Shown in pieces: positions 7,860 through 54,941 of a stretch of DNA of 64,000 nt. Source of the stretch: Bolinopsis microptera. Its lineage: Eukaryota; Ctenophora; Tentaculata; Lobata; Bolinopsidae. A program made the translations under genes and the position numbers. The stretch covers positions 14,769,628-14,833,627 of the forward strand of contig NC_087075.1 of assembly GCF_026151205.1 (NCBI RefSeq), given 5' to 3'. The notes under the pieces were generated by a model, which was not told the origin of the DNA, did no database searches, and saw only the letters and a list, made by a program, of their open reading frames with translations. Positions within the stretch are counted from its first letter, which is position 1; each line of letters begins with the position of its first letter.

Positions 7860-8146
7860 AGCGTGCACGTCCAAGTGTCGGACGGCGTGTGTGCACATGA
7901 GTAATGTTTACTTGGTGGGGAGGCGTGACGTGTGTGCACATGAGTAATGTTACTTGGTGGGGGAGGCGTGACGTGTGATGCACATGAGTAATGTATACTT
8001 GGTGGGGAGGCGTGACGTGTGTGCACATGAGTAATGTATACTTGGTGGGGGAGGCGGGACGTGTGTACATGAGTAATGTATACTTGGTGGGGGAGGCGTG
8101 ACGTGTGTGCACATGAGTAATGTTTACTTGGTGGGGGAGGCGTTTA
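7860..8146. repeat. About 42-bp minisatellite
   Basis: Seven units containing GTGCACATGAGTAATGT, then TACTTGGTGGGGGAGGCG and TGACGTGT. Reading frames across it are products of the repeat. It lies between the BMAL 5' region and the unidentified exon at 8.4 kb. Confidence 0.9.
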
Positions 8147-8430
8147 ATTAAAGATGGGTGCAATTTTTGTCACTGCAGTGAGAGAGGGTTTGATTTACTG
8201 CACAACTGCACAAGATGGGACCTACCTCAGCTTCAGAACAACTGACCTCTCAGAACAACTGACTCTCAGCAAATTTATATCGTGGTTTAATAAGATGAAG
8301 ACGTTTTAAAAATCTTTATTTTACAGTAATTTGGCGGGATAGTAAATATTGTCTGGTCCAGCTTTGTTTTCATGTACTTGAGAGACACTTCACGGTTGTT
8401 TCTACTTCAGAATAGTGGTTACAAAAAGAC

Positions 8431-39740: not shown

Positions 39741-42700
39741 AACACTTACATTGATGATTGATCCGCTCTGATGACTAATATCTTAATATGCTATATTAAT
39801 GAATAAGAGTGAATTGTAACCCGATGGAAACCTGTGTAACAGTCGTCAAGCACCAAAAACTGGTTGCTATGCCTGTAATTAATTAACACATAACAGGCGT
39901 CGCGCGCGCAAAATAGACTCCTTTTATACACATAATTATAGGGGAGTGGTCTATATTGCGAAGGAGCAGACTTTTGTCATCACCGTAGGACCGTCGGGCC
40001 AAGAGCAGGGAAAAAAATTAAGATTAAAATTATGATCCTTTCAGTAAAGATTTCCCTGTAACATAGAGGGTACGCAACCCCAGGCACAGCAAGAGTTTCT
40101 TTATGTAATAGTTTCTTATCATCAATTTACTAGTAAATTATTCAAACAATATACACATAATATAACAATTACCCTATATAAAATTCAATATAAATTCAAT
40201 AGAAAACTAAATAAAATGTATAACTAAATAAAGTTTATAAACACGTAGTATAAGTAAGCCAGTTTAAAGAACTGGCTCCAAATTTATATCTAATTCTGCT
40301 ATTTTTACTGCACTACTACTCTTCAACCCTCTCTCTCCTCTCTTTCTTATCATCATCTATCTATCTATGATCTAGCTCTGTTATATAAATGGTATGGATT
40401 TTCATTTTCTGATAACGATAAAAGTTGTATATTTAAGTATTCCCTAATCGAATCTACTTTTTACTGCATCAAAAAAACATCAATTACAACGAAAGTTATG
40501 GATAATCATAGCGTAAATTGTAATGTGAGCTTGTTATGATATATCATAGAGCATGCCTTATTGAATTTTTATATTGAATTTGTATATAGGGTCATTGCTA
40601 TATTATGTGCATATTATATGAATCTCTACTTTTATCATAGAGCATGCACATGGCTGTTTATTTAATTTCACCGTCTCTACTTGTATGTTTCCCAGATAGT
40701 TTGGAATGACTGTATTGGATTTTCATAAATAACTTTTATCATCAGTTACTGTTCTGCAGTAAACTTTTTCAATCATTTTTAATTGTATGTTGGAGTATTC
40801 AGATTGTTTGTAAATTTTGAGTTCTATAGAATTTGTATAAAATTTTTAATATTTTTGGGATTTCCATTTTTATTATTTTGTATAATATTTTGATTTGCTG
40901 ATGAGTTCCATACTGAGATCTTTTGTGCATTGTGGTCATCATCCATTTTTCAAGTCCTTTTTGAAAAAATACTTTTGTCCAATTTAAGAGACTATAATTG
41001 TTTTATTGATTACAAAAAAAATGTTGTTGGTATTTAACCAAATTTGAACTTAAGAACTTAACCATTTCAAACTTGAAACTAAAACTTCAAAATTATTTTT
41101 TAATAGTCCCCTACATAATCAATAATGTAACACAAATTTCGCCCCAAAAGTAATTTGAAATGTGAATTAAATATAAAATCACGCGCTATTTATATAATTG
41201 TAACATAACAATTAAATAGATCCTGTGCGCGGCGCATACAGCCGCACTTAATGATTTCTTAACAATGTGTGGCTGTGCGCGGCGGGTTCACATAGCCATG
41301 TGTATACGCGTACTATACTGCGTGACGCCTTCGGCGGTCGCGCGCTACTGCAATCGAGAGGGCTTTGGTTAGAGCAACGCGGTGGGCTGTATATGTGGTT
41401 GAAATTCAAATTTGAATTTATTTATGGATGTAACATTATATATTGATTTATTGATTAATTGATTAATTGTTTAATTAATTGATTAATTGTTTTGTGGTAA
41501 ATGAAAAATATCTCTTTCTTTAAAAACAATTTTTTTATATTTATATCTCCACCAAAAGCTAATTTTATTTTATTCGTATGAAATAAGTTTATAAATTACT
41601 ATACTAACTTGACGCATTCCGACAAAAATTGAAAATTGAACGCCGAACGGGAAATCGTTTGAAATCTTTTTTAAAGCACTTTGACAACTCGTGCTTGCTT
41701 TCAGAATAAAACAAATATTCAGAATAAAACAAATATTATATTCAAATCTCTTTATTCAACAATATTAAATCATTATAGAACCTAATTTGTGGCTTGATCG
41801 TTATGTTAGGGCTATTCTGTTAGCTGATGCTGACAGGCACCGCATGGGGCAGAGACTTAGGACCATTACGCTGGAGGCTTACAATGACCCTTTTTGAACC
41901 CCATGGCAGTGCTAGTTTTATTATGGTAGTTTTATTATGGCTTTATGGTAGTTTTATTATGGCTTTATTCAGAGCTTACCCGCCTGCAGTGGCGCGAAAG
42001 CACATCATGGATAGGTGCAGTGATTTTTAAAAACTCGTTTTTATGTGGCCCAGAATGATTATTCGGAACCCTAACCGTCTCATTTGAACCCAATTAACCC
42101 TAACCCAATTAATTACTAAAGCATATGCTGAAATGTGAAACCCTAACTATAACAAGAAATTAAACCAACTTCCTTATATATGGTCATTTCACGTGATCGA
42201 GACAGTTTTTGCCGATATGTCGCCAGGGACATTTTAACCCTTTGTCATGTGGGTGATTCGTAATCAGCGGTTGAAAATTTATTTTGAACAGCTAGATTAT
42301 GTTCGAAAATTGTTAAGCTTTTGAACAAAAAAGTATTTTAGAGAATAAAAAAGTTATGCACGAGTTTAATTGTGAGCCACTTTTTTGGTAGCTTTAAGTA
42401 GTTATAGCCTTACCAACTCGGTGAAAGAAATGATTAAAAAACCAAAAAATTCCATGCTCGAAGCCAAGTGTGATGCTATACTTAGGGGGACGCCAAATCG
42501 TCGTTTGAATGTGGGACAATTTCGGAAACTTAACTAAAGTACTAGCAAAACTGCGCGTTTTGCTCTAGATACACACTTTTTTAGAGATTTTACCAGCGTA
42601 TCCTCTAAAATCACCTAATTTATTAAATTTTAGGGAGGGGCACCAAAAGGAGAGGAGGCGCCAACAGGGGGGCGCTTTTTTGGCGGGGCGCCAACAGGCA

Positions 42701-42819
42701 ACGTTATGCCACTGGTGACACCTCCTCCAAGAGAGCTCTAATAATAAAACAAAGTTTTGAAATAAAATATAGTTATATTTTACTAGCAGCAAGAGAAAAA
42801 GAGGCATCCAGTAGGCTCA
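39741..42819. other. Intergenic sequence with transposon remnants
   Basis: AT-rich. GGGTCATTGCTATATTATGTG at 40591-40611 recurs at about 43524-43544 beside a decayed element. A short plus-strand frame near 41788-41898 (RYVRAILLADADRHRMGQRL, then TITLEAYNDPF) looks like a transposon-protein tail. A palindromic GGCGCCAACAGG segment lies near 42660-42700. No host gene recognised. Confidence 0.5.
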
Positions 42820-42829
42820 ACACAATGTC

Positions 42830-43380
42830 ACTCCAAACTTGCAAGCTCCTCAATTGCAAATTAGGGGCTACATGATGATTACCCATAATCACATCAGAGA
42901 CACAATGGCCAATCTCGTGCGTGAGGTATGTCATGATGTGTAAGTTGAATTCCAGCTACAGACGGTAAATGAGGGTGACTGTCTCAACCCCAAAACTAAA
43001 ACAGGTGACCAAGCTCGGCTTGATGTATCTGCTAGAGGAGTTTGGACTCCATTTGATAACACCTTTCTTGACATTAGGGTTTCACGCCCCAATTGCTTAT
43101 CAAATAGGACAAAGACTCTTTGAAGAAGTATACAAAATGAGCGAGAACTTAAAGAAAAATTAGTACCTAGAGAGAGTGGACAAGGCAACCTTCATCCCGG
43201 CCATATTTCTCACATCTGGTATGTCGAAAGAGTTTAAGCAATTTGTCAACAAATGAGCAGATCTGCGCTTTGATCTACTCAGAACCTGTATAATCTCTAT
43301 CAGGGGATACAGAGGTACCAGAACTCTTCCACCCACGGCAATACGTGATTTGGACCTTAACCTGATCAACACTCCTAAAC
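42830..43380 (+). pseudogene. Decayed mobile-element ORF of a type common in cnidarians
   Basis: Conceptual reading gives GYMMITHNHIRDTMANLVRE, then CLNPKTKTGDQARLDVSARG and VWTPFDNTFLDIRVS, ending with a CLISIRGYRGTR-type tail after frameshifts. The order (Cys/His-poor RHN-like helix, acidic RLDV, then FxDIRV, C-terminal GYRG) is one I associate with transposon-linked ORFs abundant in cnidarian genomes. The D...(D/E)-like spacing suggests a restriction-endonuclease-like fold, which is inference. At least two frameshifts or stops, so not functional. Confidence 0.6.
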
Positions 43381-43559
43381 CCTAAAAGGTCATGGAGTGC
43401 TTGTTGGATGGGGGTCTAAACTGCTTTTTGTTGTGATGTGAATTTGTTATATATTATTGCAAAGGGTTTTTATTTTAACCTCAGTTTTTAAAATTTGTAC
43501 CATTTTTAAAGAATTTTTATATAGGGTCATTGCTATATTATGTGTATATTGTTTGAATA

Positions 43560-43830
43560 ATTTTCCTCTCAGTAGTGCATCACAATAAAAACAGTGAGAC
43601 TATCCTTTTTTGGGATCACTAATGAGCAGATCTCATAGCCAGAAAGAGGAGAGAGATACTGTGATGTAGTAAGGCATGTAAGAACAAGGATAGGATTTGC
43701 TAGAACAACTCTTATCGCTTTTCGTGGGTACAGAGGAAAAAAGATTGACATCAAACACGAGACCCCTCTATCAGAAGTCTCGTACAGCCTCATCCCTGCC
43801 CAGATGATGGAGTATATGATGTGTTGTATT
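43560..43830 (+). pseudogene. Second fragment of the same cnidarian-type element
   Basis: Reads ADLIARKRRERYCDVVRHVR, then TRIGFARTTLIAFRGYRGKK and further residues to about 43827. It corresponds to the C-terminal part of the fragment at 42830-43380, so there are two partial copies, separated by sequence that includes the GGGTCATTGCTATATTATG repeat. Confidence 0.55.
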
Positions 43831-44245
43831 TTGTGTGTATATATATATTTGATTGTTTAAAGTTCAATTCAATGAAACAATAAGTGGTTTGAATGGGGCT
43901 TGTAATCGGATGGTTGCAAGTTTAAAACCTGCAGGTGTCATGTAATTATAGTATAATTTCGTTTTGTAAACCTCCACTTGGATATTCAGATATGTTTTCT
44001 ACTTAGTTTCTTCTTTCTTTTTAAACCTATTATGCGTGATTTACAGTATAACCCCTTTTAGTTCACACTTTCTATATTTCAATATTGTTAACAAACCAGC
44101 TTGAACTTAAATGGTATTAATTCTAATAGTATGTTAGGCTGCAAGGTGGGACTGTCGCGCATGTTGTTGTGTTGATTGCAATGATGTATAGTGTACAGTT
44201 TATTGCTGTTCTTATTGTTCTCATCCTTAGTTTCGACAGAGCAAG

Positions 44246-44996
44246 ATGGTAGATGTAACAGCTCTTTCAAATTATGAACTTCGTGACAATCTTACTGAAT
44301 TAGGATTTCAACCAGGTAAATATTTACATATCAAATTAATCAAATAGCTTCAGATATTTTATCCATATTAAATTAATTATAGACTGAAATGGATAATCTT
44401 TATATCAAACAAAAATATGTATCATTCATTGAATTTTGAGTCAGATAACAGTCACAATCATAGCTGTATTCTATTTCAATTTTTTGAATTTATGGATATT
44501 TTAACTGGACATTTTTTGAAGGTCCGATAACTGAAACAACAAGAAGGGTGTATGAATTGAAGTATCTGCAAATGATTGGGGAAGTTGACAGTTCAGGTAG
44601 GAGAATTTTAAGTTACATCAATCCTCAAAAGCAAGTCGGATCATTGATTTTCCCTTACTTAAAAACGTATTTTAATACATTTAGCTTCAATTTAGTATGT
44701 AACACTGTTGCACAGTGTGCCCACTGTGTGTTGACAATTACACGCTGCTTTTTCCAGATTCAGACGGAGGTATAGACTTAGCCAGTGCTCGACCCGTCAG
44801 ATTAACCTCTCCCGTAAAGCGCACCAACATTCCACACCCAACACCTGAACCAGCTTCAGCCTCATCCTCGGCTTCTGATTCCGAGCAGATTCAGGTGACA
44901 CCAGCTGAGCGGAGTGCCAAGTGGAAAGTGCGCATAGCGGCTGTTTTTGCACTTGCCATTATTATGTATTTCTACTTTGGTTCGGGGTCTAATTAA
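44246..44996 (+). CDS. Emerin-like LEM-domain inner nuclear membrane protein, 3 exons
   Basis: Likely binds barrier-to-autointegration factor and tethers chromatin at the nuclear envelope. Exons are 44246-44315, 44522-44596 and 44758-44996, all joining in phase 1. The product is 127 residues. Residues 1-45 form the LEM domain (SNYELRDNLTELGFQPGPIT, then ETTRRVYELKYLQ), matching the LEM consensus with GPIT..TR..YE. A Ser/Pro-rich linker follows (PTPEPASASSSASDSEQ). One C-terminal transmembrane segment (about residues 106-122, IAAVFALAIIMYFYF) ends in GSGSN, giving a tail-anchored topology. Much shorter than human emerin (254); closest in layout to nematode emerin. The start ATG is preceded by an acceptor-like TTAG, so a 5' UTR exon is likely. 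Confidence 0.9.
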
Positions 44997-45777
44997 AACT
45001 TTGAGTAACTCCATCATTTCTTATTTGATGTGATGTTTCAGTTGAGGATAGGGGCATAAGGTTCTGGGAATCTTCAGTATTTTAAATGGAGATTTGTTAT
45101 GTCTTGCATGAGCAATCTGCGCCAATCAATAGAAGATTTCGAAGGATTTTTGATTATTTTCAGTGCGTAATCATGATGAGCAAGTGACTGTAAAACTTTT
45201 GTGAATCTTGGTATGGTACCAACTAACACCGAGTTTATGAATAAAAAAGAACTTGCCATCATGGATATTTTAAATTCTCTAGTATTATTGTATTATGAGC
45301 ATTGCTAAACTGTAAACATTTGTAAATCTTTATTCTCTGTAGCATTTTTAACCACCTCTCTCCTTTGTTAGGAGAACCTCTTGATGTTACTATCACCAAG
45401 TTGGTACTAGTGCTTGTTGTAACTTCTTTAGAACATAATAAATGTGTTGCTCCTTTTAGATCCAATTACTAATCATAATATTCTTGTCTCATTGATAGCG
45501 ATATCAAATCATAGAAATGATTTTAATTTATCATATTTTTCACATTTACTTGTCTGTAAATTTTTAACTACAAAGTTTAATGCATAGCAAAACAGTTTTT
45601 GACATAAGTTTTTGCAAAGATGCATAAATACACCGTGTTATTATCGATACTTTTATACTTGTTGAATGTGATAATGTATTTGCTCTAATTTTGATTACCA
45701 ATATAAATATCGTTATCAAAACACCAACTGTGCATTTTACTGACGCTGTAATAATGATATTATCTATAACTACCCGC

Positions 45778-45816
<39 letters not shown>

Positions 45817-46303
45817 ACTCGGTGTTCTTGTGTTAAGATTGATTCAAGTTTCAAAATCTTAATTTTGATGATCAATTTCTACTTCAGTTAATATTGAGTC
45901 TTGTCTAATTTACTGGTTGATCACACAAATTCATTATTTGAAGTTCTATTTTTAGTTTCTGACCTTACCTTATCATTTCAAAAAGACATGTTAACCACTA
46001 AAGAAGAGACCTAACAGACTGGTCCTCCATAATGAGAGAAGTGCCACTTGGTTGAGAGGGTTAAATAGTCTCTAAATAGTAACTAAACACTACCATGACG
46101 TCACTTCAAGGTATATTGCAGTGAAATTGAAATAAAGTATATAGTTTTATACCAAATAGTTCCTGGTGTTACGTCAGATCCGTGCTTTGAGTATTTGAGT
46201 ATTTAAGCTATAGTTTAAATGTAATTTAAATAATATCATGATATTATATATACCTTAAAATTAACAATATTTAACACAGCTTCCCATCACCTATTTTAAT
46301 ACA
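44997..46303. other. 3' flank of the LEM gene and spacer to nischarin
   Basis: AT-rich. An A33 run at 45782-45814 may be the tail of a retrocopy or SINE, although no matching body was identified. No exon recognised. Confidence 0.5.
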
Positions 46304-46495
46304 GCAGAACTGTACCAGGTTCACTGCCCCTCACTGCACCAGGTTCACTAACCCTCACTGTACCAGGTTCACTAACCCTCACTTTACCAGGTTCACTGCC
46401 CCTCACTGTACCAGGTTCACTAACCCTCACTTTACCAGGTTCACTAACCCTAACAGTACCAGGTTCACTAACCCTCACTGTACCAGGTTCACTGC
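46304..46495. repeat. About 24-bp minisatellite just upstream of the nischarin start
   Basis: Eight units of CCAGGTTCACTAACCCTCAC plus TGTA, with CACTGCCCC variants, ending 27 bp before the ATG at 46522. It would lie in the 5' UTR or core promoter. Confidence 0.9.
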
Positions 46496-46521
46496 CGGAC
46501 TCAGCAAGTGGTCTGTGGAGA

Positions 46522-49500
46522 ATGGACCGGGAGTACGGGGTATCCAACACACGTGTTAAACACATTGTTATACACGAGGCCCATATCAGAGAGTCACCTG
46601 ATAGACACGTGGTAAGTGCTGATAGACACGTGGTAAGTACTGATAGACACGTGGTAAGTGCTGATAGACACGTGGTAAGTGCTGATAGACACGTGGTAAG
46701 TACTGATAGACACGTGGTAAGTGCTGATAGACACGTGGTAAGTACTGATAGACACGTGGTAAGTGCTGATAGACACGTGGTAAGTGCTGATAGACACGTG
46801 GTAAGTACTGATAGACACGTGGTAAGTACTGATAGACACGTGGTAAGTACTGATAGACACGTGGTAAGTACTGATAGACACGTGGTAAGTACTGATAGAC
46901 ACGTGGTAAGTGCTGATAGACACGTGGTAAGTACTGATAGACACGTGGTAAGTACCGATAGACACGTGGTAAGTACTGATAGACACGTGGTAAGTACTGA
47001 TAGACACGTGGTAAGTACTGATAGACACGTGGTAAGTACTGATAGACACGTGGTAAGTACTGATAGACACGTGGTAAGTACTGATAGACACGTGGTAAGT
47101 ACTGATAGACACGTGGTAAGTACTCTAGTAGCAGGGTGTAGTTGCACGGATAGACAGAGAGGAGTCTGGGGCAAATTTGAGGAGTCTGGGGCAAAATTTA
47201 TAGCGTTCACAGAATAACCCCCTCATACCAAATCAATATCCCCTCAGGTTTACAGAATAGACGTGTTCACACAGGAGAGAAACTGGTGTGTGTACCGGCG
47301 CTACAGCGAGTTCCGCAAACTTCACGACAAGATATCAGACAGTTTCAAGATGTTTAAAGGTTCCTTCCCTCCTAAGCAACTATCTGGTAACCTCTCTCCT
47401 GCTATTATAGAACAGAGACGGAGTTCCCTGGAGCATTACCTTCTGAAAATAGTTAATTGGTAAGCAGTGTTCAGTGTTTTACAAGTAAATTACAAGTAAA
47501 TTACAAGTAAATTACAAGTAAATTACAAGTAAATTACAAGTGTATTACAAGTAAATTACAAGTAAATTACAAGTAATAAGTAACTAACTTCAAGTAACAA
47601 GTAACTTTATGAGGAATTCGTCACGGCTTGATTTAAATTTTTAATTTCCCGAATGGAAGATAGTATTACCTACTTATCACTAAACAAACAATGTTGGAAA
47701 TCACAAAGTACTTCTCATTTACCCTCTGTCTCCCAGCCACAACCAGGACGTGTCCTCGTGTTCCACAGATATTGTCTTGTTTTCTTTTTGGCTATAAGCA
47801 CTATTATCATGTATGTCTCCAAGCCTCTGTAACCCTCTGTCTCCACAGCCACAACCAGGACGTGTCCTCGTGCTCCACAGTACTCCGCTTCCTGGACCTG
47901 CACCACAACGACGTGTACTACGTCACCAGCTCCCTGTGCCGCTATGTTAGGACGTTTGGGGAGGCGATTATAAACGAGGGACACTACTTTGTGTTGTCTC
48001 CTACTCAGCTGTTTTGTGTTCACAAGAGGCTGAGGATACCCAACAGTGATGCTGGTTAGTTGAAACTAAACAGTGATGCTGGTTAGTTGAAACTAAACAG
48101 TGATGCTGGTTAGTTGAAACTAAACAGTGATGCTGGTTAGTTGAAACTAAACAGTGATGCTGGTTAGTTGAAACTAAACAGTGATGCTGGTTAGTTGAAA
48201 CTAAACAGTGATGCTGGTTAGTTGAAACTAAACAGTGATGCTGGTTAGTTGAAACTAAACAGTGATGCTGGTTAGTTGAAACTAAACAGTGATGCTGGTT
48301 AGTTGAAACTAAACAGTGATGCTGGTTAGTTGAAACTAAACAGTGATGCTGGTTAGTTGAAACTAAACAGTGATGCTGGTTAGTTGAAACTAAACAGTGA
48401 TGCTGGTTAGTTGAAACTAAACAGTGATGCTGGTTAGTTGAAACTAAACAGTGATGCTGGTTAGTTGAAACTAAACAGTGATGCTGGTTAGTTGAAACTA
48501 AACAGTGATGCTGGTTAGTTGAAACTAAACAGTGATGCTGGTTAGTTGAAACTAAACAGTGATGCTGGTTAGTTGAAACTAAACAGTGATGCTGGTTAGT
48601 TGAAACTAAACAGTGATGCTGGTTAGTTGAAACTAAACAGTGATGCTGGTTAGTTGAAACTAAACAGTGATGCTGGTTAGTTGAAACTAAACAGTGATGC
48701 TGGTTAGTTGAAACTAAACAGTGATGCTGGTTAGTTGAAACTAAACAGTGATGCTGGTTAGTTGAAACTAAACAGTGATGCTGGTTAGTTGAAACTAAAC
48801 AGTGATGCTGGTTAGTTGAAACTAAACAGTGATGCTGGTTAGTTGAAACAGTGATGCTGGTTAGTTGAAACTAAACAGTGATGCTGGTTAGTTGAAACTA
48901 AACAGTGATGCTGGTTAGTTGAAACTAAACAGTGATGCTGGTTAGTTGAAACAGTGATGCTGGTTAGTTGAAACTAAACAGTGATGCTGGTTAGTTGAAA
49001 CTAAACAGTGATGCTGGTTAGTTGAAACAGTGATGCTGGTTAGTTGAAACTAAACAGTGATGCTGGTTAGTTGAAACAGTGATGCTGGTTAGTTGAAACT
49101 AAACAGTGATGCTGGTTAGTTGAAACTAAACAGTGATGCTGGTTAGTTGAAACTAAACAGTGATGCTGGTTAGTTGAAACTAAACAGTGATGCTGGTTAG
49201 TTGAAACTAAATTTGAATTTTATTAAATAATTTTCGCGGTTTTGATTAAAGTTTTGACCAATGAGGTCGGTGAGAGTGACACAAGTCTCCATCAAGGTAG
49301 AAGCAGTATATTATCCGGAGAAAAATTTGATGCAATGAACATGTTGATTTCTCCTGCCGGGCAATGGGTGAAAGTCAAACGTTTTAAACTTTCAGACAGC
49401 TAGTCAAGAATTTTTGTTGATAATTTTAATCGAAAAACTTAATTAATTAATTAATAAATAATTAATAAATTATTAATTTAACACTGTTTCAGACTACAAA

Positions 49501-52500
49501 GCTGACACAGTGTTCTGTGACCTGGGTTCACTGTACGATTTCCTGGGTCGACTCACTAAAGTTTGTATTAAACCAGCTAGTCTACAAGACCAGGGTATAA
49601 GATGTGAGATTGCTCTTTTAAAGAATGTCAAGGAACTTCAGATCCAGACATTCTCTGTTTCACTTATCAAAGGTAAATTGTTGGGATTAATCCTTCTTTT
49701 CTCCGGTCTAACTGCTGCTGATTTCAACAATGAGGCTTGTTGAAACTTGAGACTTTTTCATATGTTTATTTAAATCCAAGTGTTGTTATATGAGATAGTG
49801 TTGGTTAAGAAATACAGTCAAATTTATCATCTGAGGCCTTTTATAGATGGGGTTAAAAAGCAATGCAAACCTATTAAAGTTTTAAAAATTTTACGATTTC
49901 GTTTAGCAGGGTAAAATCATTTCTCTGAAACCCGTCTCCTATTTCAGGGCTAGCAGCAGTTCAGCTACAGATACAGCGCCTGAAAGCTACTCAAGCTCTC
50001 ACTGCTATGAAGGATTTACTGATTGATTGTGTACTTGAAAGAAAAACCCAGGTAATTGGTACTAATTGGTGCTAATGTTTGCTAATTGGAGATCATTAGA
50101 GATTATCAGATAGCTTTTGTGTCTGAACTCGTAATTCGAACTCGTAATGAAATATTATCATTAGTTGGTGAAGATGTAGTACATATTAACGAGGAAAGAA
50201 CCTGATCTATAATGAACCAAATTAAGAGTCAAAATAACTCGTTTGAATGCTTGAGCTTCTACTCGGAATTTTAATTATGTGCCCCAAAATAACGTTTGAT
50301 GATCATTCATACAAACACCTCCAAAGCTTAAAGGAAGTATTTTAAATGTGTTTGCTTAATCTGTAATATGTGAGTCGGATTGGGTTGATTAAAATAGTTG
50401 AAATAGTTGAAATAGTTAAAATAGTTGAAATAGTTAAAATAGTTGAAATAGTTGAAATAGTTGAAATAGTTGAAATAGTTGAAATAGTTGAAATAGTTAA
50501 AATAGTTGAAATAGTTGAAATAGTTGAAATAGTTGAAATAGTTCCCCATCGTTCAAGGTGACCTACAACGGAAAGGGACTATGGAAGTCGAGATCATGGG
50601 AACTAACCGTTCCCGTTTTAGTAAGAGTTCCCGTTTAAGTTATGTTTTAATAATATGATCCCCGTGTATGAAATACATTTTATCGTACGGTGGATTGTCG
50701 AAGTGATTAATATCCACTGCTGGATTGAAGATTGACATACCTGCCCCGTTTTTCTAATGGAATTATAAAATGTTATACTAATTACCTATTCACAATAATA
50801 ACCTGAAATATCGTAAGTTACAATCATTCCCAAAATTTTACTGTTTCGGCTGTAAACTTTAAACTGTTCATCGTAAATTCAAGTCAGATTTTTGTTGTAT
50901 CTTTGCTATACAATTATATTTTACACCAGCGCATGGTTTTGAGCACCGTATTCTGTATTCCGTATTGTCTAAAAACGTAATCAATCTATTTCCTTTATCC
51001 CATTTAAACCGATGTAAGCTCAGTAAATTTGGTTTTATTTTAATTTTATGCTGGCGCGTTGCCAAATAATCAGGATCGCTGACAAAAGTGCCATATTGTA
51101 AAAAGCTAAAAATAAGAATTATGTCTATTTAATTATGTCTATTGTGTGATCATGGGGAATTTACAGATTTGATTACGGAATTTAGGGTGTTATAATTGAT
51201 GACCCATCTATACTACGAGATCTATAATAATGTACATTTAAATTTGTGTAAATAATCAGTTAATTAATTAGTGTATTGATAAATCAATAAATCAATTGAT
51301 CACTAATTACCAATTAATTGGCCACACAAGTAGGAAGTAAAATAAGGACCCGAGCACAGACTAAAATAGATCATAATAAGAGCACAGCTCAAAATAGAAC
51401 AAAATCTGATTGGCAGTCACGCTGCACGTGACTGCCCGCACGTGACTGGCGCGCGTCCAATGGACGTTATGAAGGAGATTTGTTTTGGTTATAGCAGGAG
51501 AGATCACGTTTAGAGTGCGTCTGTCTGATTAGCCCACGTCACTGCACACGTGACTGTGCAGAGCCAATAGGGTGCTATGTAACTTGTGTAAGGTGTGTAC
51601 GCTAGGTGCGTGTAAGGGACATCTAATTTATTATTAAACACAGCTGGCCAGCAGAGAATCGAAAATATAAGGACTTTTTATGGATGAAAATCGAAGCGAA
51701 AACCTTGTAACCCTATGTTTTCGAGTACGCTGAACAAGATTAAACTGGTTATAATTATCATACTCAAGGGCAAATTGCTTTAAAATGTACTTGAATGTCA
51801 TAGATGCAATTATACCGGCTTATCGAGTGGCACCAGTCTCTCTCGCCACTAGTTCTCAGCTTATTATCGGGCTCGTGAAGGAAAGATCTCGAGTTCAGAT
51901 GACGAAAACCATTTTCCCAAATAATGATTTTAAAATCTATTTTTCATACAGTAAGCAAGAAAAGCAGTCGGTAAGCAGTAAAAATGTTAAAATATGTGTA
52001 CATGATCAGTGTCTAATATCACATATAATCTTCATCAGAACGGGGTGAAACCTGGTTTCTTCACGTTCTTGTTGGTACGATCTTGACTGTCATGTCAATC
52101 TCGTCATCAAGTCGGAATGCTGGTGTGTCCAGACTTGAGTTTTTGTTAGGAGAGTGCTCTACCTTCTTTGGGGACCTGAATAACTGAAGGGGGTTCCTAT
52201 ACTTTGGTACAGGATAGTTCTTAGTTGGGGTCCCCAAACCTCTCTTGCTCCTCTCTTGACCATGGATAGCGGCTGGAGAGCGAGGAAGTGAGGCTGATCG
52301 GCCAGGTGGAGAAAAGGATGCCGATGTAGTTTGTGGGGCTGTGAGTGGCGAGGCCCCCTGCAACGATCCCATCTTCGGCTTTGCCTTTTCCTTGCCCTTC
52401 GGAGCCGATGATTTCAGCAAGCTGGTGAAAGAGATCAGCTCCTTTCTGCCCCCTAGACTGTGCCCAACCCGTAACACGAGATCAGCGAATTTACGTCGCC

Positions 52501-54685
52501 ACGAATTTGGTAACCGTAGTAACAGTGTGTCACGTGTTAATTATGAGCCAATCATGGCAACCTGCGTGATAACTGATATAGAGATATATAAGGGACCGAT
52601 AGATAAGGTGAGCTCAGATACATTCTTTATATCCACATATATCCGTGGGAACTATTAAATAGTGTGTAAGTGTGGATCAATAACACTGTTCAGATTTTCG
52701 GGCACCAAAAATAAAGTGCAACTCCTATTCGGTTCGTGGGATATATCGCTTCTGGACAAATATTATGCGGGCTATATCAGCACGTGCTGTATTAGAGGGA
52801 TAACAAATATCATCTACCGGCGCTGGCCCGCTGTACTACAAACAGCCCGCTACTGGATATATTGACACAAATTTACTAGCTGTAGTGCTGTACACTCAAA
52901 ATTTGAGTCTCAAACCGTATTTGAGTCTAAAATACGGTTACTGAATTTGTGTCGAGCATGCCTAGTTTTTACTTTTAGCTATAATATCCATCTTAGAAAA
53001 CCGAATTGAGGATTCCCAGCACTCAAATACAGTCAATAAATACTTTGATGTCCCTATGTTCCAAATTTATGGATTCATCTACTGTACACGGCACTGCATT
53101 GGGTAATCGTACTGTAGTGCGACACGTACTCTAGTGCGACAAGTACAGCTCTAGTGCGAAGTCCGACAAAAACACCCTCTTTCGCACTACAGTACGTGTC
53201 GCACTACGATCCAATTCCAGGTAGCGTACTCTAGTGCGACACAATATCCTGTCTTATTTCCATGTTCAGGTCAGATCCTCTTTCGCACTAGAGTGTATGA
53301 GTGCCCTTCTTGTGGACCTGATTCGTCGGGTCTTTTCACTTTACTTATTTCGAAGTGATCTTGTGGACCCGATTCGTCGGTTCACGTCATGTATTTCGAA
53401 GTGATCCACTGATCATAATTCCTTCGGCTTCGGGTCAATGATTTTAAATTGAATATTATACAGTCCAGGTATAGCGTACTGTAGTGCGACAGTGTCGGCC
53501 TTGAAAATTCTCTGTCGCACTTCAGGCTCTGCACAGTCACGTTTGCAGTGATGTGCGCTAACAGGAGTGTCAACCAATCTGTAAGTAGCCCTAACACAGT
53601 CATATGATAATAATTAGTTCATCATAAAACCGCTATGAATAAAACTGCGGACTAGAAATACCGCTTATACTCTTATAGAAGTCCCGATACAATCCTTGAT
53701 ACTGGTTAATATACGTATTCGTTAATGTTAGCAAATGTTTGAGAAAATGGTTTTCGTCTTCTGAGCTAGAGATCTTTCCTTCACGAGCCTGATAATAAGC
53801 TGAGAACTAGTGGCGAGAGAGACTGGTGCCACTCGATAAGCCGGTATAATTGCATCTATGACATTCAAGTACATTTTAAAGCAATTTGCCCTTGAGTATG
53901 ATAATTATAACCAGTTTAATCTTGTTCAGCGTACTCGAAAACATAGGGTTACAAGGTTTTCGCTTCGATTTTCATCCATAAAAAGTCCTTATATTTTCGA
54001 TTCTCTGCCGGCCAGCTGTGTTTAATAATAAATTAGATGTCCCTTACACGCACCTAGCGTACACACCTTACACAAGTTACATAGCACCCTATTGGCTCTG
54101 CACAGTCACGTGTGCAGTGACGTGGGCTAATCAGACAGACGCACTCTAAACGTGATCTCTCCTGCTATAACCAAAACAAATCTCCTTCATAACGTCCATT
54201 GGACGCGCGCCAGTCACGTGCGGGCAGTCACGTGCAGCGTGACTGCCAATCAGATTTTGTTCTATTTTGAGCTGTGCTCTTATTATGATCTATTTTAGTC
54301 TGTGCTCGGGTCCTTATTTTACTTCCTACTTGTGTGGCCAATTGATAATCCCTAATTTTTCAGCCCAAACAGCCAGCAGCGGAGAGAAGTGAGTCCAACA
54401 CTAAAATGAGGGACTCGTACAACTCAAAAATGATGTTCAACTCGTACGTTTAAGTTTAATAATTTAATTGGTCGGATTGAATCTGGTTAAACTGTTGAGG
54501 CTGCCTAGCCTCATGTTAATTAAACAATTATGTAATTGGCTTTAAGATATAATTAACCTAATTAACCACATTTATATCTTTTCAGGTTCACGATACATCC
54601 GTGGATATCACTACTTTATCTAGACCTATCTCACAATTCTATCCGACAACTTGACGACTCTTTCTCTCTGCTTCCCAACCTCCAG
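46522..54685 (+). CDS. NISCH: Nischarin (PX domain plus leucine-rich repeats), 5' part
   Basis: Endosomal/cytosolic scaffold known in vertebrates to bind phosphoinositides, integrin alpha5, PAK and Rac. Exons: 46522-46611, 47248-47459, 47849-48054, 49493-49672, 49948-50051, 54364-54443 and 54586-54685; every junction phase agrees. Exons 1-2 form the PX domain (VKHIVIHEA, then VYRIDVF and WCVYRRYSEFRKLHDKI, FPPKQLSGNLSPAIIEQRR). Exon 3 has VLRFLDLHHNDVYYV and FVLSPTQLFCV. Exons 4-5 are the pre-LRR region. Exon 7 has SLLYLDLSHNSIRQLDDSF, an LRR. Domain order and several motifs match human nischarin. About 324 residues are seen of an expected 1,000 or more; no later exon was recognised in the remaining 9.3 kb. 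Odd: splice sites of exons 1 and 3 lie inside tandem arrays, and a transposon ends 22 bp before exon 6's acceptor. Confidence 0.92.
46600..47119. repeat. 21-bp array containing the nischarin exon-1 splice donor, 25 donor copies
   Basis: Each unit reads GATAGACACGTG (last 12 bases of exon 1), then GTAAGT and ACT/GCT. Donor positions run from 46612 to 47116 in steps of 21 (504 bp, 24 intervals). The exon frame stays open through all units as DRHVVSA or DRHVVST. Each unit also carries CACGTG. Confidence 0.97.
47478..47580. repeat. 11-bp AAGTAAATTAC array in nischarin intron 2
   Basis: About nine units of ACAAGTAAATT beginning shortly after the exon-2 donor (GTAAGC at 47460). Confidence 0.9.
47730..47880. 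repeat. Duplicated nischarin exon-3 acceptor
   Basis: CCCTCTGTCTCCCAG followed by CCACAACCAGGACGTGTCCT at about 47721-47766 is nearly repeated as CCCTCTGTCTCCACAG and the same exon start at 47833-47880. The upstream copy soon reaches an in-frame TAA, so only the second copy gives the conserved exon. Confidence 0.9.
48041..49208. repeat. 26-bp array containing the nischarin exon-3 splice donor, about 45 units
   Basis: The unit is AACAGTGATGCTG (last 13 bases of exon 3), then GTTAGTTGAAACT. Most units are identical. Five are shortened by loss of CTAAA. The array starts inside the exon (donor at 48055) and fills most of intron 3. Confidence 0.97.
50385..50543. repeat. 9-bp TTGAAATAG array
   Basis: About 17 units of AATAGTTGA / AATAGTTAA in nischarin intron 5, open in both directions because the unit is a multiple of three. 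Not coding. Confidence 0.93.
52061..52477 (-). CDS. Unidentified ORF inside the long-TIR element
   Basis: The frame is open for 138 codons from a GTG and about 20 codons further upstream without an ATG (NSWRRKFADLVLRVGH). It is rich in Lys, Pro and Ser, with RSPKKVEHSPNKNSS and DDEIDMTVKIVPTRT at the end. Composition looks protein-like rather than random, so it may be a captured host-gene fragment or an element-encoded tail. No family recognised and no start context seen. Confidence 0.35.
   Translation of the reverse strand: MLRVGHSLGGRKELISFTSLLKSSAPKGKEKAKPKMGSLQGASPLTAPQTTSASFSPPGRSASLPRSPAAIHGQERSKRGLGTPTKNYPVPKYRNPLQLFRSPKKVEHSPNKNSSLDTPAFRLDDEIDMTVKIVPTRT
53100..53530. repeat. Iterated TAGTGCGAC motifs in both orientations
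   Basis: About nine copies of (G/C)TAGTGCGA(C/A) or its inverse TCGCACTA(G/C) within 430 bp, for example GTACTGTAGTGCGACACGTA near 53110 and its inverse near 53180-53200. Also a direct duplication of CTTGTGGAC(C)TGATTCGTCGG at about 53310 and 53361. It lies in the interior of the long-TIR element. Confidence 0.8.
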
Positions 54686-54941
54686 GTTATTACTAATTAC
54701 TAATTACTAATTACTAAGTAGTTGCTAATTAGGTAAGTAGTTGCTTATTATGTAATTAGTTACTGAGTATTATTTACTATAATTACCTTTAGTTTACTGA
54801 TAACTGAGTATTAGTTTTTTTATTAAATACTTTTCAAATTTTACAGAGTACAGCAATAGATGAATATAAAATAGAATCGTTCAAAATATCGCCCCCATCT
54901 GTAAAATATGATGGGCACCCAAACACGGTAAACACATAGTG

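Follow-up and report, generated by a model that had tools for sequence, protein, structure and literature searches.

The border between exon 1 and intron 1 of a nischarin gene in Bolinopsis microptera was found to carry a minisatellite of 25 units of 21 bp, each containing the splice donor word GTAAGT. This array is probably a border-spanning minisatellite that is tolerated, with the first donor (donor 1) as the main working site and the later donors used at a low level at most. The window, i.e. the whole stretch of 64,000 nt that was analyzed, was G000:C4:14769628-14833627, in a genome of 264.65 Mb in 232 contigs.

Exon 1 (46522-46611, plus strand; 90 bp; MDREYGVSNTRVKHIVIHEAHIRESPDRHV) began with the start codon, ATG, and ended in GACACGTG immediately before the gtaagt of donor 1. 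The array on the same strand (46598-47124) was detected by TRF with a period of 21, 25.1 copies, 97% matches and a score of 998, and the listing of its units gave GTAAGT in 25 of 25. The two results agreed, and confirmed the tandem block across the exon 1 donor that had been described in the initial annotation. The donors had also been called identical there. This was correct over GTAAGT, but not beyond it: the last base of the unit, which is donor position +7, was A in 18 units and G in 7. The only other variation was a C at base 2 in one of the 25 units. Unit 1 overlapped the coding exon, its first 14 bases being the last 14 of exon 1. If donor 1 is used, intron 1 spans 46612-47247, and exon 2 starts at 47248, preceded by ...cccctcag.

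The gene model continued on the plus strand with exon 2 (47248-47459), which encodes the PX core (VYRIDVFTQERNWCVYRRYSEF...), exon 3 (47849-48054), which ends ...RIPNSDA at the donor GTTAGT, exon 4 (49493-49672), exon 5 (49948-50051), exon 6 (54364-54443) and exon 7 (54586-54685), which contains the leucine-rich repeat motif LLYLDLSHNSIRQLDDSFSLLPNLQ. In the frame test described below, exon 7 was taken one base longer, to 54686.

The product of exons 1-5, spliced via donor 1, matched the PX domain PF00787 (E 1.2e-17). Its best solved-structure match was nischarin (8esf_A, E 7.6e-23), and 3p0c_A, also nischarin, was among the 27 matches. These results upheld the identification of a nischarin PX exon. 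The nischarin features present were the PX domain, a nischarin-like stretch after it, and the one leucine-rich repeat motif in exon 7; a sense-strand motif scan of about 29 kb past the window and of 40 kb around the second gene copy (see below) gave no further leucine-rich repeat exon. In a large protein collection, P0001 was the sole match (1 of 196 candidates), aligning to 34% of the query at 45% identity, and its sequence MYRVDVFTQERNWCVYRRYSEF was the counterpart of the start of exon 2.

When any of the 25 GTAAGT sites was joined to exon 2, the frame was kept and all seven modeled exons remained open (25/25), as had been claimed. Donor n would add n-1 blocks of seven residues, also as claimed, and the same DRHV/VYRID junction was rebuilt in each possible isoform. 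The whole array was one open frame.

The protein alignments at this junction favored donor 1. The alignment with human nischarin (8esf_A) covered residues 24-256 of the donor-1 product and crossed the junction at residue 30/31 with no gap there. The designed CISK PX domain was likewise gap-free at the junction, and SNX16 had a one-residue insertion a few residues past it. This comparison was made on three alignments out of the 27 structure matches.

A second donor-spanning minisatellite was present in intron 3 (48042-49211, plus strand). Exon 3 ended in AACAGTGATGCTG followed by GTTAGTTGAAACTA, and this 27-bp unit was repeated 44 times (44.1 copies, 44 GTTAGT sites). An open product was obtained only from the first site, both in the window (1 of 44, with 43 closed) and in the second gene copy (1 of 18, with 17 closed). 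The first extra unit read GGT TAG.

The second gene copy was on the same contig at a distance of about 230 kb, where the 5' part of the gene recurred in inverted orientation (G000:C4:14585043-14585782). Similarity to it came in pieces over 42481-54813 of the window, and the aligned pieces, exons and arrays included, were 92-99% identical. The copy may be a true duplication, or it may represent two haplotypes placed in one contig (a misplaced haplotype). Over the seven exons, the two copies differed at 13 positions in 324 codons. All the differences were synonymous, with no amino acid change, so that both gene copies look constrained.

The arrays, on the other hand, differed in size between the window and the copy: 25 versus 19 units for the 21-bp array, 44 versus 18 for the 27-bp array and 9 versus 4 for an 11-bp array. 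The values of 25 and 19 both come from the same assembly, one from each gene copy. In intron 1 of the copy, the 19 units of 21 bp were followed by a 35-bp subarray with more donors, which brought the total of GTAAGT to 22. Of these, 19 were open, two shifted the frame, and one was in frame but met a stop. The A and G unit variants of the 21-bp array were common to both copies. This suggests that the array was already present before the two gene copies separated and has been retained since.

The copy also had a 22-bp array over the exon 2 acceptor. The start of exon 3 (32 bases, with an acceptor-like end in front of them) was duplicated about 111 bases upstream in the window and in the copy alike; in the window this duplicate lay in intron 2 (47737-47768, plus strand), had one mismatch and was preceded by an acceptor-like cag. 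In intron 5 of the window, a segment of about 3 kb (51313-54346) had inverted ends of 600 bp that were 99% alike. It was absent from the copy, which had about 8 kb extra elsewhere in its intron 5. From its structure, this segment looks like a young terminal-inverted-repeat insertion.

We infer that donor 1 is the main site from three of these results, namely the gap-free protein alignment, the constrained protein next to drifting arrays, and the closure of the intron 3 array. Splicing at donor 1 would yield the ordinary nischarin PX domain. The minisatellite would have arisen from a short tandem duplication straddling the exon 1/intron 1 border, which then grew to 25 units. Since unit 1 is the one that belongs to the exon, added units would be intronic whenever splicing occurs at donor 1, and expansion would thus be nearly neutral. 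The open frame would be a by-product of the 21-bp period and a stop-free unit. With each later donor, a further seven residues would be placed N-terminal to the PX strand VYRID. Such use is probably low-level at most; by analogy with human IFI6 (see below), donors 2 and 3 are the likeliest sites.

Some observations counted against this reading. One was the 19 open donors among the 22 of the copy, and another was the A and G variants shared by both copies. In addition, the sequence did not single out donor 1: GTAAGT was equal at all 25 sites, and donor 1 had G at +7, where 18 of the 25 units had A. At this position, A is the base complementary to U1, and G is less so.

The openness of the 21-bp array was compared with chance. 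A 21-mer starting with GTAAGT at phase 0 was stop-free in 0.71 of random draws. Multiplied by the one-third chance that a period is divisible by 3, this gave about 0.24, or about one in four. One fully open array among four donor-spanning arrays fits this chance.

The other arrays came from a scan of neighboring and random DNA. The random sample consisted of 20 stretches of 10 kb on three contigs (200 kb in total), in which 67 arrays (at least 3 copies, periods of 8-70, at least 75% matches) covered 11.8 kb, or 5.9%. A first-unit donor score of at least 6.5 gave 32 rows; the intron 3 array, at 6.4, was under this cut. The rows inspected by sequence were nischarin and its copy, L011, L017, L024 and L028. 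Four independent donor-spanning arrays were found in 344 kb, which is a hand count and not a rate, as only some of the 32 rows were inspected.

L024, from the random sample, had on its minus strand (from 2284 down) a putative exon ending ...SLETKIEAMKK before gtaaact; the unit was 35 bp long, and the main run contained 14 donors at even spacing. A stop was met already in the first extra unit. L028, from 80 kb of chosen neighboring DNA, had a 39-bp unit with four donors (8071-8226) after an open frame of 154 codons, the end of which, ...YDNQDLP, was followed by gtgagaca. Both exons were judged by eye from the open frame and splice signals. Open downstream donors amounted to 24 of 24 in intron 1 of nischarin, 0 of 43 in intron 3 and 1 of 3 in L028.

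Two further arrays were noted. In L003 (1504-1583), a 21-bp array, GTAAGTACTGATAGGGACAGG, was similar to the nischarin unit and is a candidate donor-spanning array. L005 (1-3343; G000:C4:2478949-2482291) was filled entirely by a 22-bp unit repeated about 152 times, which read GGTAAGTGTTTTATTACAGTGT on the minus strand. Every copy held the donor GTAAGT and the acceptor-like end TTTTATTACAG.

It is conceivable, though rather unlikely, that border-straddling minisatellites are common in this animal, that those with stop-free units of a multiple of 3 form a standing source of isoforms of different length, with the 25 donors of nischarin as one instance, and that repeat number tunes the use of later donors. 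The local sample, i.e. the 200 kb and the window, gave no excess of the donor motif in minisatellites generally. GTAAGT occurred in the units of none of the 67 sampled arrays (0.7 expected) and of one of the 32 arrays in the window (0.5 expected). With a donor matrix, the 67 sampled arrays did not score above their shuffled units. Thirteen of the 32 window arrays reached the lowest cut versus 8.7 expected, and as many were reached in 5 of 100 shuffles; the higher cuts gave nothing for these 32 arrays.

Word matches were also counted over the whole genome. Three GTAAGT in short gaps had 12,546 matches, versus 2,508 for the reversed word, 4,239 for the control GATAGT and 3,345 for its reverse. 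In genome-wide matches, tandem GTAAGT thus exceeded the three controls, which have its letter composition, by a factor of 3 to 5. Single words were about equal in the 200 kb (104 GTAAGT, 86 reversed and 110 GATAGT). Three AGGTAAGT in short gaps had 958 matches and the reversed word had none; a cluster at C1:761375-762150 was among the AGGTAAGT matches listed and absent among the GTAAGT matches listed. Word matches are not arrays, as one array yields many matches and a few very large arrays could explain the excess. Word counts thus do not separate more numerous from merely larger donor-bearing arrays, and the excess leans toward border-spanning arrays as a standing source of isoforms.

The initial annotation proposed a length-variable splicing system, in which repeat number and donor choice together set the length of the PX loop. 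For this, several to many donors would have to be in use to a useful extent. One part of it held, in that a donor-spanning array in frame is present. All 25 donors being open and every isoform restoring DRHV/VYRID agree with such a system, and human IFI6 reportedly uses two downstream repeats as donors. The other part, that repeat number sets loop length, was not supported. The junction was free of inserts in the three PX alignments compared. The copy encoded an identical protein while its array number had drifted, 3 of its 22 donors were closed, and its 35-bp subarray broke the frame. The intron 3 array was closed beyond its first donor, as was L024, and L028 was open at only one of three downstream donors. 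This makes such a system improbable.

That the copy number is an artefact of assembly is comparably improbable. The number is that of the assembled sequence, but such arrays were present in both gene copies, with different sizes and unit variants. The 25-unit array is more probably a tolerated minisatellite spliced mainly at donor 1.

RNA folding was considered as a device by which rod-like repeat RNA would hide the spare donors and leave donor 1 exposed. A stretch of 300 nt (exon end and array) folded at -95.1 kcal/mol (z -3.2), and none of 200 dinucleotide shuffles was as good. In 4 of 6 comparisons, the predicted accessibility of donor 1 was higher than the mean for the remaining donors. 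However, tandemly repeated shuffled units folded as well in 0.22 and 0.52 of 200 shuffles (for two unit types), so that the fold was ordinary for a tandem array. Predicted accessibility was near zero throughout in both copies, and the differences were tiny and changed sign with the window size of the prediction. A masking rod was thus unsupported, and we consider it very unlikely.

Among 38 arrays from the window and L006-L025 (periods of 12-60, at least 85% matches), eight had units in the best-folding 5% relative to shuffled units when folded as tandem RNA. Self-pairing units may grow more easily as arrays.

Finally, the intron-proximal of two equal donors is preferred under some conditions, and the array, being open throughout, could in principle be exon with its last, acceptor-nearest donors as the main ones; this is scarcely credible, as the resulting VSTDRHV repeat would place up to 24 x 7 = 168 residues before the PX strand, in a number differing between the gene copies, and late donors in intron 3 give no open product.

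The runs of 25 and 44 donors in the window, and of 22 and 18 in the copy, are a natural experiment on the choice that the spliceosome makes among equal donors. If the first donor alone is used in all four runs, a strict first-donor rule would follow. Use of later donors restricted to intron 1 would instead make the decay of faulty messages the filter.

Introns can be gained by tandem duplications that carry splice signals. The nischarin array is alike in that the duplication carries the donor, but unlike in that it straddles the border of an existing intron and no new intron is made. The DDX3Y minisatellite MSY2 was dropped as a precedent, as a transcription start has been placed there. A literature search on the G1P3 splice donor and tandem repeats gave no match.

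The closest known system is human IFI6 (6-16, G1P3), the minisatellite of which has a 12-bp unit. Multiple splice donors in it were reportedly described by Turri, Cuin and Porter in 1995. According to a later account, two downstream repeat units of IFI6 serve as donor sites, giving three mRNA species (PMC4526556). The nischarin array resembles this system in offering tandem donors within a minisatellite; in IFI6 the later donors make isoforms. It differs in its 21-bp unit, in being known here from genomic sequence where IFI6 is known from transcripts, and in that the gene has another array, in intron 3, that is closed after the first donor. The kind of arrangement is already known from human IFI6, and nischarin is another gene in which it occurs.
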